Made by a program: the position numbers and the translations under genes. A DNA stretch of 64,000 bases from Rubellicoccus peritrichatus (GTDB taxonomy: Bacteria; Verrucomicrobiota; Verrucomicrobiia; Opitutales; Cerasicoccaceae), in the NCBI RefSeq assembly GCF_033100135.1, contig NZ_CP136920.1, positions 5,389,001 to 5,453,000 of the forward strand, written 5' to 3'. Shown piece after piece: positions 4,688 to 9,706 of this stretch. The notes beneath the pieces are model-generated. The model had not been told where the DNA came from. It saw only the letters and a program-made list of their open reading frames with translations, and did no database searches. Each line of letters starts with the position of its first letter. The stretch's first letter is position 1.

Positions 4688-4827
4688 CCTCGTTTTTCGT
4701 TCTGTGTATACCGTGAGAAATATAATTTATTCAACAAGGGCCAGATAAATCCAACCACATTCGCACTTCACATTAACCATCTCTCCCTTCATTAAGTCTA
4801 GAGTCACACGCCATCCAACCAACCAGC

Positions 4828-5841
4828 ATGCTCGCAACAACAGATTCCAAGCACTCCAAGCCCACCGGCTTTGATGACATTATCGCCCCAGTAGAGGCGA
4901 GCCTGCATGCGCTAACAGCATTTCTAGACAACCAGTCCAATGAATTTGAGACTGAAGTCCGCGAAATGGTCGCTTATTGCCTGAAGAACCAAGGCAAGCG
5001 CATCCGCCCTGTCCTGGTCTTCTTCAGTGGTTGGCCCATTACCACTGAGAATCAAGATTTGCTGGTACGGGCATCTGCTGTCGTCGAACTCGTTCATTTG
5101 GCGACGCTTGTTCATGACGACATTCTGGATGATGCAACGATACGTCATAATTCAGATACGGCCAGCGCACGCTGGGGTAACGCAGCTGCTGTCCTCCTTG
5201 GCGACGCATTGTTTTCGCAAGCGCTCAAGCTCGCCTCCGATTTCCCTACTGTTGAGGTATGCCGTGCCGTCTCTCTGGCAACCCGCAGAGTCTGTGCAGG
5301 TGAAATCCGTCAGACCTTCGAGCGAGGCAACGCCAACTTTGCTCTCGATGAGTATTTCCGCGTCATAGAGCTAAAAACCGCAGAATTATTCAAAGTATCC
5401 TGTTTTCTTGGGGCACACCTAAACGGCTACTCTGAAACAGCAGTCAATGCAGCTGCTGAATTCGGGCGTCGCCTGGGTATCGCCTATCAGATTTACGATG
5501 ATCTCGCTGACATTCTTGGAGATGAGAAGAAAATCGGAAAGACACTGGGAACAGACCTGGCAAGCGGCAAATACACACTCCCCACCCTGCTTCTGCTCCA
5601 GGATGGACATATTTCATCAAAAGAACTGTTAGAAATTAAGCAAAGTGGCAAATTTGACCATGAGCACTTCCTTGGGCAGCTACGCGACTCTGGAATCATC
5701 GAGCGCGTGCATGAAATTTTCTTAAAGGAGATTGATGCGGCTGAAGCAGCAATCATAAGCGTCCAAGACGAGTTCCAGGCCGGTGAGTATCTACTTCGCT
5801 TAAGTGAATTCGTACGCCTCCAAATGGCACGCTATTCTTGA
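4828..5841 (+). CDS. Trans-polyprenyl diphosphate synthase
   Basis: Condenses isopentenyl diphosphate with allylic diphosphates to make a long-chain prenyl diphosphate for quinones or related lipids. The 337 residues carry the first Asp-rich motif HDDILDD (near 92-98), RHN after it, the KTAELF segment, and the second Asp-rich motif YDDLAD (near 222). GKRIRPVLVFF near 55 is the substrate-binding start of the fold. Length fits octaprenyl/solanesyl-type IspB or geranylgeranyl synthases; chain length cannot be read from the sequence. Confidence 0.87.
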   Translation: MLATTDSKHSKPTGFDDIIAPVEASLHALTAFLDNQSNEFETEVREMVAYCLKNQGKRIRPVLVFFSGWPITTENQDLLVRASAVVELVHLATLVHDDILDDATIRHNSDTASARWGNAAAVLLGDALFSQALKLASDFPTVEVCRAVSLATRRVCAGEIRQTFERGNANFALDEYFRVIELKTAELFKVSCFLGAHLNGYSETAVNAAAEFGRRLGIAYQIYDDLADILGDEKKIGKTLGTDLASGKYTLPTLLLLQDGHISSKELLEIKQSGKFDHEHFLGQLRDSGIIERVHEIFLKEIDAAEAAIISVQDEFQAGEYLLRLSEFVRLQMARYS

Positions 5842-5980
5842 GAAACAGATCTCAAGATATTCAGAAATAGACAGGGAATTCATCTTTTTGCTTTAAGCAT
5901 TCAGTACGAACCATTTAGGGCTGCGTGCATGGCGCGTTTAGAGTTGCAATTCTACCGCCAAACCTTGAATCTATCTGGAA

Positions 5981-6613
5981 ATGGCTCACAGCAGCGCCAT
6001 ATCCAAGTCCGTCGCCGTCAGAACGGCCGACCAAGCCGTTTCAGCAGATTCGGACATGGCCATCGTACGCCAAGTGCAAGCGGGCGACGTCGCTGCCTTT
6101 GATCGTTTGACAGTCAAATATCGAGAACGACTGTTCTCCGTTGTATACAATCTGACATCAAACCGAGAAGATGCAAATGACCTGACTCAGGATGCCTTCA
6201 TCAAGGCATTCCGCTCTATTAATAAGTTTAAAGGTCGTTCCAGCTTCTTTACCTGGCTCTATCGCATTGCTGTGAATGGTGCAATTTCGCACCTCAAAAA
6301 GAACCGTTTGAGGCGTTTTTTCAGCTTGGAAGACCTCAATGAGTCAGCTGGCAGCAAAGAGATCCTGGATGCCCTTGCGGTCAAAACAGGCACAGAAAAA
6401 CCTGCTCTTTTAAACGAACTTCAAGAAAAATTGAACGAGGCGCTCCAAAAACTGTCTCTAAAGCATAGAACCGTAGTTGTGCTATTTGAAATAGAGGGGT
6501 TGAGTCATCAGGAAATAGCCGAAGTTACCAAAACTTCGGAAGGTACTGTGCGCTCCCGGCTCCACTACGCCAAACAGCAGCTACAATCATCTCTCAGCGA
6601 CTATTTGGCTTAA
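5981..6613 (+). CDS. ECF-type RNA polymerase sigma factor
   Basis: 210-residue sigma70-family factor with only regions 2 and 4. Region 2 spans about 28-105 (VRQVQAGDVAAFDRL, then DLTQDAFIKAFRSINKF and TWLYRIAVNGAI); region 4 spans about 150-205 (LSLKHRTVVVLFEIEGLSHQ and the helix-turn-helix EIAEVTKTSEGTVRSRLHYA). The first 25 residues are not conserved, so the true start may be slightly downstream. The next two genes encode a single-pass membrane protein and a secreted PDZ protein, an arrangement reminiscent of envelope-stress sigma systems. Confidence 0.88.
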   Translation: MAHSSAISKSVAVRTADQAVSADSDMAIVRQVQAGDVAAFDRLTVKYRERLFSVVYNLTSNREDANDLTQDAFIKAFRSINKFKGRSSFFTWLYRIAVNGAISHLKKNRLRRFFSLEDLNESAGSKEILDALAVKTGTEKPALLNELQEKLNEALQKLSLKHRTVVVLFEIEGLSHQEIAEVTKTSEGTVRSRLHYAKQQLQSSLSDYLA

Positions 6614-6637
6614 ATTTTGCTTACTTCATTTTAACTT

Positions 6638-7186
6638 ATGGCTGAAAAACCATCGAAAGATTCAGAAAAAGTAACCGTCGAAGATCTGCTGCAGCTTAAA
6701 AAGCACGAGCAACCGGACAAGGCGTTCTGGGATCGCTTCGAGCGCGAGCTTCATGAGAAAACCTTACGCTCACTCGTCAAATCTCCCTCTGCTTCAAAAG
6801 GTGCTCTCATCAGACTCTTTGGAAAACTACACCCCGCATTGCCACTCAGTGGTGCTGCCGCTTTCACACTCACTTTCCTCATCGCCAATGGCTATCTGAA
6901 CACCACTGCATTCATAGAGCAGGAGGTGTCCCCCCAAGTCGTAGTAGCCAGCGCTCCTGAGATTGCGAACGAAACATCCACGACGGCCGAACTTAAGCCA
7001 ATGGCCGACTATCAAGCAAGCTACGTGGTAAGCGCACTGCCTGCTCATACTGGCGAATCAATGGAGCCATACACTCAGGTTGCAGCATCCAAAGCGCTGA
7101 CTCCAGTCCATCGCCCTGGCGTTCAATATGTCTCAGGTAGCTTCGCGACCTCAATAGGTACCAGCGGAACTATTGGCATTTATTGA
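6638..7186 (+). CDS. Single-pass membrane protein, possible anti-sigma partner
   Basis: 182-residue protein I cannot assign to a named family. It has a charged cytoplasmic N-terminus (residues 1-65, with VTVEDLLQLKKHEQPDKAFW and DRFERELHEKTLRSL), one hydrophobic segment (about 70-88) and a Thr/Ala/Ser-rich outer part ending in GTIGIY. The topology and its position 24 bases after an ECF sigma gene fit an anti-sigma factor, but no zinc-binding anti-sigma motif is seen. Its stop lies just before the start of the next gene. Confidence 0.6.
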   Translation: MAEKPSKDSEKVTVEDLLQLKKHEQPDKAFWDRFERELHEKTLRSLVKSPSASKGALIRLFGKLHPALPLSGAAAFTLTFLIANGYLNTTAFIEQEVSPQVVVASAPEIANETSTTAELKPMADYQASYVVSALPAHTGESMEPYTQVAASKALTPVHRPGVQYVSGSFATSIGTSGTIGIY

Positions 7187-7214
7187 GCATATCGGAGTGA
7201 AAACACCAAGCAGT

Positions 7215-8453
7215 ATGAAACTGCTGTTATTCATTACGACAGCAGTCATAAGCGCACTCAGCTTCAGTCCGTTGCTTGCTCAGGATGACGCTGGACTCAA
7301 TGCAGCCCTTGGCTTGCAGCGGAGAGTCCAAAACGTCTTCGAAGACAACAAACTCGCTGTCGTAAAAGTCATCTCGGCCTTCAATACAGAAAACGAAGAC
7401 GCCAAAAACGTTTTATTGGTCGGAACCGGTTTCTACATAAGCAAAGAAGGCCACATCATGACCAACACAAATGTGGTCTACGGGGCTGATCGTATCTGGA
7501 TTGAACGAGAAGGTATCGCTTATGTATGTGAAGCCGTAGGACATGATCCGCTGACCAATATTTCGATTATACAAGCCCTGACCCTTCCTTCCGATTTTGA
7601 ATTTCTCCGTTTTTCAGAAAAACCAGACCTGCCTGCTGTTGGGAGCTTCCTCCTTTCCATAACCTGTGAGCTAGGTATGCAGCCAGGACCTTCTTTTGGA
7701 TTGATCTCCGGATGGAATACCCAGTATGTCGAGCGCATCCTGCCAACGATCTATCTCCGTACGGACATCCCTTATGATGGAGGTGAAGGTGGCGCCCCGG
7801 TATTCGATCTCAACGGCTCTCTGGTTGGCATGATCGTAGCCGCATTGCCTGAGATCCGCTCCTCTCTTGTCCTGCCCGCCAGAGCGATCCAACGTGTCAG
7901 AGATGACATTCTCTTTTCCGGCCAAGTGACCTATGCCTATTTTGGTTTCCAAACGCGACAGACATCAAGTCTTGCCAGCGGCCCTTGGGTAGAAGTCGAA
8001 GATGTTCAAAAGGATAGCCCTGCAGACACAGCTGGTATTCTGAAAGGTGACATTTTAAAACAAGTCGGGGACTTCGAAATAAAGACCGATGATGATTTAA
8101 GAACTGCTTCATTCTTCACGCGGCCAGACGAATTTGTCACCATCTACATCATTCGTGGTGACAAAGAGATGAATCTTGAAATGAAGCCGTCTGTGCGTGA
8201 AGTCCCGATTACGGCCATGCCTCCGGCACATGCTCAAGCTCCAATGGAGGCAGATGGTCCGTTTCCCGTAGGTGCAGATTTCGTGCTACCAACGGAAACA
8301 GCTCCTCCAGCAGAAGAAAAGGCGACCTCAGAAGAAGATTCGTTACCAGATGAAGCTGCTCCTGCTCAATCCGCATCACCAAAAGATAAAGATGCGCCGG
8401 TCGCATCTCCGCAGGTCGAAAAAGCTCCATCAGACACAGGAGAAGAGTCATGA
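7215..8453 (+). CDS. Secreted HtrA-like trypsin/PDZ protein lacking catalytic residues
   Basis: 412-residue exported protein. Signal peptide about 1-22 (SPLLAQ). The trypsin-like domain has HtrA landmarks, but the catalytic His is Asn86 (TNTNVV instead of TNxHVV) and the nucleophilic Ser is Glu190 (GGEGGAP instead of GNSGGP); Asp110 (GHDPLTN) is kept. A PDZ domain follows at about 240-330 (DSPADTAGILKGDILKQVGD). The C-terminal 75 residues are Pro/Ala/Glu-rich. This is a probable pseudoprotease, perhaps a peptide-binding sensor or chaperone in the sigma-membrane protein module upstream. The start was chosen where the signal peptide begins. Confidence 0.8.
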   Translation: MKLLLFITTAVISALSFSPLLAQDDAGLNAALGLQRRVQNVFEDNKLAVVKVISAFNTENEDAKNVLLVGTGFYISKEGHIMTNTNVVYGADRIWIEREGIAYVCEAVGHDPLTNISIIQALTLPSDFEFLRFSEKPDLPAVGSFLLSITCELGMQPGPSFGLISGWNTQYVERILPTIYLRTDIPYDGGEGGAPVFDLNGSLVGMIVAALPEIRSSLVLPARAIQRVRDDILFSGQVTYAYFGFQTRQTSSLASGPWVEVEDVQKDSPADTAGILKGDILKQVGDFEIKTDDDLRTASFFTRPDEFVTIYIIRGDKEMNLEMKPSVREVPITAMPPAHAQAPMEADGPFPVGADFVLPTETAPPAEEKATSEEDSLPDEAAPAQSASPKDKDAPVASPQVEKAPSDTGEES

Positions 8454-8471
8454 TATCGCTTCAAACAGGGT

Positions 8472-9074
8472 TTACTCTCTACCCTCGCGACTTTTAGCTG
8501 CAAGTCTCTGGATAGCACGTTGACGGGCGGCATAGCTGCGACTCGGATCATGCAGCTCAGGTGGATTCCACTTTTGAGCCTCAAGACGCTCCCAGTCCTT
8601 CCCCAGTGTCATGGCATCGTCATAAACCGGCGGGGAATCCTTAGTCTCCCCTGGTTCGAAGATATAACTGGGGTTACTCAAGTATAGTAATCTTGCTGGT
8701 TCAGAGCCCTGTGAATTGTCCAACTGTAGAAATGTGCCTGGCTGTATCAGTAAAGCTGCACTGGTAAAGCCCGGCTTTCCTGACGGTTCAGGTAGCTTCA
8801 GTTCTTGTGCGTAGAGTTCCTGCTCATCCCATGGTTCCTTCATCCAGATTTTGATTTCACCCGATAACAGAACAATGACGTGAGAGATGAAGGAATGTAC
8901 GATAATGTCAGACACGATACCAGAGTCGACTTGCCCTGCGGCGACACTTAGGCCGTCTAGTAAATCCCAAGGCAGCCCACTCTTAATATCCTTAGGGTTA
9001 AGATAGGGATTCACAAGCGTACCATCCGGTACTGTATAAAAACCATCCTCTGAGCATTCAAATAAACTCTTCAT
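8472..9074 (-). CDS. Cupin-like hypothetical protein
   Basis: 200-residue cytoplasmic protein, not confidently recognised. The central part has alternating beta strands like a cupin barrel (IVHSFISHVIVLLSGEIKIW and SAALLIQPGTFLQLDNSQ), with no obvious metal-binding His cluster beyond HSFISH. The C-terminal 60 residues are charged and helical (DWERLEAQKWNPPELHDPSR and an Arg-rich end). Monocistronic, convergent with the HtrA-like gene. Function unknown. Confidence 0.55.
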   Translation of the reverse strand: MKSLFECSEDGFYTVPDGTLVNPYLNPKDIKSGLPWDLLDGLSVAAGQVDSGIVSDIIVHSFISHVIVLLSGEIKIWMKEPWDEQELYAQELKLPEPSGKPGFTSAALLIQPGTFLQLDNSQGSEPARLLYLSNPSYIFEPGETKDSPPVYDDAMTLGKDWERLEAQKWNPPELHDPSRSYAARQRAIQRLAAKSREGRE

Positions 9075-9133
9075 TAGAGCACACTATCATAACCAAGTTA
9101 TAAAATCCCAAAAAAACAGCAATTCACTTAATT

Positions 9134-9706
9134 CTACTCAGTCGTTTTCAGCTTCTCAAGCTCTGGCTTAATTACTTTCTCATAATGGTCGGGGTCGATT
9201 CCATGAGAAAGCTTAATCCCCAAGTGATTATCCATGAACTCCTCAATTGTCTGCCAACCTTCATCCGGGAAATTAATCCTCTTGGTGTAGGCGCAAATGG
9301 TAAGTACATTTTCGAGTGATTTGATCCGTGAAGTGCTCTTCAAAATCCGCTCGGCAACATGCAGCCTGATTTGTAGTTGAGTTCGATTTAACGGCTTGGC
9401 GAGGAAGTCATCCACCCCTGCATCCATCGCCTTAAAGTAATTATCCTCTTCACCAATATTAGCAGTTAACATGATGAAATACGTATAGTCTGACTTTTTA
9501 TGCCCACGAATGTGCTCGCAAAGCTCAATACCATCCATGTTCGGCATCAACCAGTCACTGACAATTATACGAGTGGGCATGGTTTGATACATTCTCCAAG
9601 CCTCTTCGCCGTCGTTAGCCACAGTGACTTCATAACCCATTTGCTCAAGATTCGTCTGTAGCAGACGCTGAGAAATGAAATCGTCTTCCGCGATTAAAAC
9701 GTTCAT
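9134..9706 (-). CDS. Single-domain response regulator
   Basis: Receiver-domain protein with no DNA-binding output domain. MNVLIAEDDF gives the acidic pair; the phosphoacceptor is the Asp in IVSDWLMPNMDG; the conserved Lys is in AKPLNR; the switch Thr is in MLTAN. About 65 residues follow the receiver and are helical with no recognised domain. The start used gives MNVLIAEDD; an in-frame ATG seven codons upstream (9727) preceded by GGGG is also possible. No histidine kinase is adjacent, so it is an orphan regulator here. Confidence 0.82.
   Translation of the reverse strand: MNVLIAEDDFISQRLLQTNLEQMGYEVTVANDGEEAWRMYQTMPTRIIVSDWLMPNMDGIELCEHIRGHKKSDYTYFIMLTANIGEEDNYFKAMDAGVDDFLAKPLNRTQLQIRLHVAERILKSTSRIKSLENVLTICAYTKRINFPDEGWQTIEEFMDNHLGIKLSHGIDPDHYEKVIKPELEKLKTTE

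Follow-up and report, generated by a model that had tools for sequence, protein, structure and literature searches.

What does a protein of the HtrA family do beside a sigma factor once it has lost the residues with which it would cut? In textbook accounts, HtrA proteases with PDZ domains trigger sigma-E type responses by cutting, and the question is raised by three genes of Rubellicoccus peritrichatus, which lie within a 64,000-nt stretch of contig NZ_CP136920.1 (the window; all coordinates below are positions within it). All three are on the + strand, and they encode an extracytoplasmic function (ECF) sigma factor, a membrane protein with a single transmembrane helix, which we call the middle protein, and a protein of the HtrA fold with one PDZ domain:

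5981..6613, + strand: ECF sigma factor, 210 amino acids, with regions 2 and 4 (family matches)
6638..7186, + strand: one-pass membrane protein (the middle protein), 182 amino acids, read as a putative anti-sigma factor (predicted)
7215..8453, + strand: HtrA-fold pseudoprotease with one PDZ domain, 412 amino acids (Pfam, structure model, Foldseek)

The best explanation we can offer, held tentatively and with a little less than even confidence, is that these genes form an envelope-stress sigma/anti-sigma switch whose HtrA does not cleave. The arrangement, together with a membrane protein whose last residue is aromatic like that of outer-membrane proteins, suggests an alarm that would sense unfolded proteins by binding them rather than by cutting.

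An initial annotation of this DNA had described three co-directional genes of these kinds, and Pfam and NCBIfam matches together with a conserved neighbourhood bear it out. The sigma factor matches TIGR02937 (E=1.2e-33, over the cut-off of that model) as well as Sigma70_r2 and Sigma70_r4_2, and its best NCBIfam match is the RpoE-like TIGR02939, under that model's cut-off; as a short protein with sigma-70 regions 2 and 4, it belongs with the ECF factors. The HtrA-like protein, which likely starts at the ATG at 7215 and not at the TTG at 7173 of the mechanical open reading frame list, matches Trypsin_2 (E=5e-15) and PDZ_2 (E=3.4e-11). Of the sequences with solved structures, those nearest to its family profile belong to DegP-like proteases (best E=1.8e-59). 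Its AlphaFold2 model, in which the predicted local distance difference test (pLDDT) score is at least 90 in 282 of 412 residues, chiefly those of the protease and PDZ domains, retrieves DegP, DegQ, DegS and AlgW in Foldseek (best E 3.2e-25, about 20% identity). These methods agree on the HtrA fold and PDZ domain that had been proposed. The protein thus has the trypsin-like fold followed by a PDZ domain that mark an HtrA, but not the His-Asp-Ser catalytic triad. Below, its relatives are termed dead HtrAs, and a comparison set of 25 proteins from the same phylum true HtrAs.

7215..7283, + strand: probable signal peptide (N-terminal hydrophobic segment, judged by eye; AlphaFold2 helix at residues 2-15)
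7470..7472, + strand: Asn86 at the position of the catalytic His (alignment)
7557..7559, + strand: Asn115 at the position of the catalytic Asp (alignment)
7689..7691, + strand: Pro159, found in 91/91 dead HtrAs; Val in 25/25 true HtrAs
7758..7760, + strand: Arg182, found in 91/91 dead HtrAs; Gln in 25/25 true HtrAs
7788..7790, + strand: Gly192 at the position of the catalytic Ser, with Glu191 before it (alignment)
7941..8183, + strand: PDZ domain, residues 243-323, with the carboxylate-loop YFGF kept
8211..8450, + strand: C-terminal tail, predicted disordered (AlphaFold2, pLDDT about 50)

The GNSGGP of true HtrAs aligns without gaps with GEGGAP in this protein, placing Gly192 at the position of the Ser and Glu191 at that of the Asn preceding it. 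The initial annotation was right that the catalytic His is replaced by Asn86; the Glu that it put in place of the Ser (its Glu190, here Glu191) precedes that position, and it missed a third loss, that of the Asp to Asn115. Judged from its sequence, the protein is without the residues needed to cut, which speaks against proteolytic activity on the putative anti-sigma factor.

An orthologue with an intact triad had been named as the observation that would point to a recent pseudogene or a sequencing error, and there is none (0/91) among the dereplicated dead HtrAs, a set restricted to loci that have the sigma gene and an HtrA match that is complete or almost so. The residue aligned with the catalytic His is never His, being Ser in 46 relatives, Asn in 18 and another residue in 23, with gaps in 4; that aligned with the Asp is Asn in 76, Gly in 11, Asp in 1 and another in 3; and that aligned with the Ser is Gly in 59, Ser in 10 and another in 22. 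Loci outside the 91 (L032, L033, L040-L042, L093, L094 and L153) are also triad-less where readable. The 25 true HtrAs have His in 25/25, Ser in 25/25 and Asp in 24/25. A hidden active site in the dead HtrAs is unlikely: the Ser of ten and the Asp of one never occur together, and neither occurs with His. The ten Ser-keeping proteins (L029, L030, L034-L037, L043, L071, L089 and L155, with GESG or GDSG) all lack His and Asp, and in them the Ser may be the last residue to be lost, or may be retained for another use.

That the gene is a recent pseudogene, or the product of a sequencing error or misassembly, is so improbable that we give it almost no weight. Stops fall inside the matched stretch in two of 43 orthologue matches (L025, L032), and nothing else was found in favour of decay, while the other 41 matches are stop-free and equal losses recur in the 91 dereplicated relatives, from many genomes. 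In a tree of the 91 dead and 25 true HtrAs, a single branch splits the two groups (Shimodaira–Hasegawa-like approximate likelihood-ratio test 100); the tree was made by a quick method, its root is not known, and 22 of the 25 true HtrAs come from Opitutaceae. At position 169, Arg is present in 25/25 true HtrAs and mostly replaced in the dead ones (32 Ser, 22 Lys, 14 Thr). Given this replacement and the dead HtrAs' own invariants, Pro159 and Arg182, the fold looks rebuilt rather than left to decay. We take positions 169 and 182 to be those of Arg178 and Gln191 in the activation cluster of DegS, an equivalence for which a text search gave no source. From the family's distribution across the class we infer that the triad was lost long ago, no later than the family's spread through that class.

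This distribution was followed in several sets of genomes. With an orthologue cut-off of E<=1e-23 (the next matches, at 2.7e-20 and weaker, are to longer frames, e.g. of 582 and 597 residues), the HtrA-like protein has an orthologue in 42 of 54 genomes, its own counted in; as one gene is split over two contigs, this gives 43 loci. The co-occurrence of the three genes, which the initial annotation had proposed to check, is borne out: the sigma gene is in the same place at 39 of the 43 loci, and the middle gene at 38 by a one-sequence search, plus L023 by a profile search. Four loci are without the sigma gene. L041 is the second half of the split gene; L040 has an internal N run, and the stretch past it (L147) is without a sigma gene; L033 has none there nor in the stretch beyond (L148); and for L032 the sigma and middle genes are elsewhere in the same genome (L145). 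In that genome the dead HtrA is unlinked, all three genes are kept and the middle protein still ends in Phe. Counted over the 54 genomes, dead HtrA and middle gene are both present in 40, both absent in 10 and found alone in four (HtrA only in G010 and G017, middle gene only in G022 and G043); in G044, one of the 40, they are not neighbours.

Of 288 genomes drawn from the phylum, at least 26 have a match of at least 198 bits, 14 of them in the order, 11 in other orders of the class and 1 in another class; this count is a lower bound, with up to 7 candidates scored per genome. Twenty loci were taken from the draw (5 from the order, 11 from the class, 1 from another class, and 3 next-best matches). 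The first 17 all carry the sigma gene and a dead HtrA, together with a middle gene that a profile recognised in 12 of them and its position in the other 5 (L045-L049). The remaining three (L058-L060) are true HtrAs with no sigma gene. A further set of 49 dead-HtrA loci, sharing records with the other sets of relatives, has both partners at 47, and at L093 there is almost no upstream sequence; Cerasicoccus frondis and C. arenae are among its organisms, and most of the others are metagenome genomes of Opitutales and Puniceicoccaceae. The trio is widespread across the order, and is also found in other orders of the class and in one genome of another class.

What, then, might a dead HtrA hold on to? 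The candidate is the product of the gene that accompanies it:

6830..6886, + strand: predicted transmembrane helix of the middle protein, residues 65-83 (AlphaFold2)
7181..7183, + strand: codon of the C-terminal Tyr182 of the middle protein; Phe or Tyr in 101/109 relatives

The middle protein consists of some 60 N-terminal residues (probably cytosolic), the transmembrane helix and a tail predicted to be disordered and periplasmic. AlphaFold2 predicts helices at residues 14-23, 28-47 and 52-63, the membrane helix at 65-83 and disorder thereafter (mean pLDDT 66.7, predicted template modelling score 0.27). The N-terminal part carries a conserved LLxLKxxExPxxxFWxxF, with Lys21, Pro26, Trp31 and Phe34 invariant in the 37 proteins aligned. 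The N-terminus is probably inside, since in 101 of 109 proteins Lys and Arg are commoner on the N-terminal side of the helix than on the other (4 show the opposite and 4 no difference). A gene adjoining that of the sigma factor, a single pass with the N-terminus inside and a periplasmic tail are the marks of an anti-sigma factor of the RseA/MucA type, and the middle protein has them.

The tail itself varies in sequence, and in length from 23 to 233 residues (median 104, with automatic helix placing), while its end does not: the last residue is Phe or Tyr in 101 of 109 dereplicated middle proteins, against a background of 7.6% among the other residues of the last 60 (the binomial p, 1e-102, takes no account of relatedness, and we do not gauge the effect by it). 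The eight without it are L009 (an assembly gap), L013, L026, L030, L152, L155, L179 and L180. Hydrophobic residues are found near the end as well, in 61% at position -3, 34% at -2 and 21% at -4. At the same loci, an aromatic end is seen in 1 of 109 sigma proteins and 1 of 91 HtrA-like proteins. Outer-membrane proteins (OMPs) of the window's genome end alike: of the two Omp85 proteins and six TonB receptors, which are everything listed by two family searches of that genome, seven end in Phe and one in Tyr (8/8). According to the accessible text of PMC8545111, the PDZ domain of DegS binds YxF, and AlgW reads the C-termini of OMPs and of MucE. Because of this specificity and the likeness of its aromatic end to those of OMPs, the tail resembles an OMP-type PDZ ligand. 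The OMP-like terminal Phe or Tyr on the variable periplasmic tail of the middle protein is a new observation. On the side of the putative receptor, Gly244 of the PDZ carboxylate loop is kept in 81 of 91 dead HtrAs.

We propose the following mechanism. The N-terminal, cytosolic part of the middle protein would hold the sigma factor, and the aromatic end of its periplasmic tail would be the PDZ ligand. The dead HtrA would grip the tail through its PDZ domain and so protect the anti-sigma factor, in the manner of RseB and MucB. Unassembled OMPs would compete for the same domain with their own C-termini, and a tail freed in this way would be cut by a true HtrA and RseP, after which the sigma factor would be released. 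The window's genome encodes an RseP-type protease and two HtrAs with intact triad motifs. The RseP-type frame (G000:C1:5221451-5223118) has 600 residues, against the 421 positions of the model, and is near a TonB receptor gene (5219209). A more specific form of the proposal is possible, and we regard it as rather doubtful: the system would be a class-wide stress response in which the anti-sigma tail is a built-in OMP mimic, the ancient dead HtrA weighs that tail against unassembled OMPs and cuts nothing, so that a sensor of the sigma-E type has turned into a competition switch, and the former activation site has been rewired, with Arg lost at 169 and gained at 182.

The closest known systems include DegS-RseA-RseB-sigma-E of E. 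coli and AlgW-MucA-MucB-AlgU of P. aeruginosa, which likewise combine an ECF sigma factor, an inner-membrane partner with a periplasmic tail and an HtrA-fold PDZ protein, with OMP-like aromatic C-termini as the likely signal. Unlike in these systems, the HtrA-like partner here is without any triad residue, the aromatic C-terminus is on the operon's own membrane protein, and the operon, looked at in the window only, has no third regulator of the RseB/MucB kind. The role that the dead HtrA would share with RseB and MucB is that of a non-cleaving periplasmic guard of the anti-sigma factor. The fold of RseB and MucB differs from the one found here, where the family matches are Trypsin_2 and PDZ and the model has the HtrA fold. 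RseB and MucB are in complex with RseA and MucA and suppress their cutting (PMC8545111, accessible text). By the same source, MucE is also a periplasmic protein with a C-terminal aromatic peptide read by an HtrA PDZ domain. MucE is, however, a free-standing activator whose protease is active, whereas the middle protein is the sigma-operon partner of a dead HtrA. MamO of magnetotactic bacteria is likewise a bacterial HtrA-family pseudoprotease with a non-catalytic role. In MamO, by the accessible text of PMC4794232, Thr replaces the catalytic Ser while His and Asp remain, and the protein further has a metal site and a TauE-like transporter domain at its C-terminus. This description does not fit our protein, in which His and Asp are gone, Gly is at the Ser position, and a PDZ domain, a disordered tail and a sigma factor are found instead. 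The literature searched, which takes in a minority of subscription papers and no bioRxiv preprints, yielded nothing about an HtrA pseudoprotease from a sigma operon or about the present system of Verrucomicrobiota.

A number of results count against the proposed switch. Sequence searches do not identify the middle protein as an anti-sigma factor, the window's own member having no Pfam or NCBIfam family at E<=0.1. The NCBIfam anti-sigma model NF052375 matches 2 of 37 members (best E 0.0016), among chance-level matches, and an unrelated NCBIfam model scores better in one member (E 0.00027). A PDB sequence search with the middle-protein alignment gave one match, at E 0.78, and a fold comparison aligned nine chains, the best of which (Z 4.1) is a phage tail needle. 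Two genomes, G010 (where the gene is partly N) and G017, have a dead HtrA and no middle gene that we could find, and locus L094 of the 49-locus set shows neither partner within 2.5 kb upstream. Finally, the PDZ Gly and the aromatic end are not significantly associated across 89 rows (2 dropped; Fisher p=0.078).

This last result bears on the possibility that the dead HtrA is no regulator, but a periplasmic chaperone or scaffold under the control of the sigma factor, i.e. an effector of the operon like MucD minus proteolysis. HtrA genes are known in ECF sigma/anti-sigma operons, as with mucD in algU-mucABCD and htrA beside sigE in mycobacteria. Both MucD and the mycobacterial HtrA are active proteases, unlike the dead HtrA here. 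Proteolytically inactive HtrAs are described as chaperones, at least in the accessible part of the literature, and a link between PDZ loop and tail is not statistically shown. However, the tight co-occurrence with the middle gene (40 genomes with both, 10 with neither, 4 with one alone; n=54), and the loss of the triad together with the appearance of new invariants, point to a private partner, and we consider a mere effector quite unlikely.

The Opitutaceae pose the other difficulty for the proposed switch. The middle gene is present in 40 of 41 genomes of this family and the dead HtrA in 8 of 41 (called at 278 bits or more; the next match has 169.6), yet in the 33 genomes without a dead HtrA, 14 of the 16 middle proteins read end in Phe, and the other two in Leu. 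The open frames of these 16 have 274-370 residues, while most of those with a dead HtrA have 190-211 and two have 422 and 302. Opitutaceae loci without an adjacent dead HtrA (L143, L144, L179-L197) mostly have longer middle proteins, many with ends like VSIKF, which by eye look like beta-signals. As the terminal Phe is kept without the dead HtrA, the aromatic end must have a use without that PDZ domain; it cannot serve the dead HtrA alone, and there may be another reader of the peptide too. Among the eight dead HtrAs of Opitutaceae (dereplicated) the PDZ Gly is replaced, mostly by Pro, and six of the eight tails are still aromatic. The peptide-binding, non-cleaving signalling that the initial annotation had suggested is therefore qualified: the operon, the kept PDZ Gly and the aromatic end fit it, whereas the Opitutaceae keep the Phe where no dead HtrA is found.

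Two readings were kept because of this pattern. The first, which we prefer, is that the dead HtrA holds the tail, while the second is that a true HtrA encoded elsewhere reads the tail end, as ligand or degron, and the dead one acts as a brake on that protease, through mixed oligomers or competition for the tail. The persistence of the aromatic end without the dead HtrA agrees with the second reading, as do the two HtrAs with intact triad motifs in the window's genome and, in the accessible text of PMC4794232, the action of MamO on MamE-dependent proteolysis without catalysis of its own. Opitutaceae without a dead HtrA would, however, need another brake or none. We consider this reading unlikely, while taking it seriously. 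The beta-signal-like ends of many Opitutaceae proteins raise another candidate, namely that the tail mimics a beta-signal and is read by the beta-barrel assembly machinery (BAM) or a periplasmic chaperone, so that the switch would report the load on BAM and the dead HtrA would be a chaperone of the same pathway. The eight OMPs examined in the window's genome do end alike, but it would be unusual for a BAM client to be anchored in the inner membrane through a helix, as this tail is, and the neighbouring PDZ domain stays unexplained; we think this reading improbable.

Autoregulation of the operon was considered as well. The regions upstream of 93 sigma genes (125 before dereplication; seven further genes lacked the anchor pattern), searched for a motif of two blocks, gave no RpoE-like site. 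The best motif was about TTTGCAA, 13 bases, TGCTTT, with a log-likelihood of 150 against 51 for shuffled sequence, an uneven comparison (60 restarts against 25 for the shuffled) from which relatedness was not removed. Inspected by eye at 29 loci, this motif looks in several of them like a housekeeping promoter, about TTGC(C/A)A ... TGcTAggtT; positions 5842-5980 and the same region in relatives share such an element, which resembles a housekeeping promoter more than an ECF promoter. Immediately before this region is a further gene:

4828..5841, + strand: polyprenyl synthetase, upstream of the sigma gene (family match)

This gene is upstream on the same strand at 22 of 67 dereplicated loci with at least 300 bases before the sigma frame, including L044, from another order of the class, and L051, from another class; such synteny is consistent with vertical descent. 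Downstream, the nearest long frame, at 8472-9074, is on the opposite strand. There is no Rfam match within 4800-9200, and there are no tRNA genes in the window. Further away, 1614-2447 encodes a putative secreted protein that resembles FecR by eye and whose end is rich in Pro and Thr.

The lineage keeps an HtrA without cutting residues beside its sigma factor. If the preferred reading is true, Verrucomicrobiota gain an envelope-stress pathway that is open to testing, in a group for which text searches naming it or its order listed no paper on such an HtrA-containing pathway. If the PDZ domain does read the aromatic end of the membrane protein, sensing and cutting would be separable, and these genes would offer a system in which PDZ sensing may be studied free of proteolysis.

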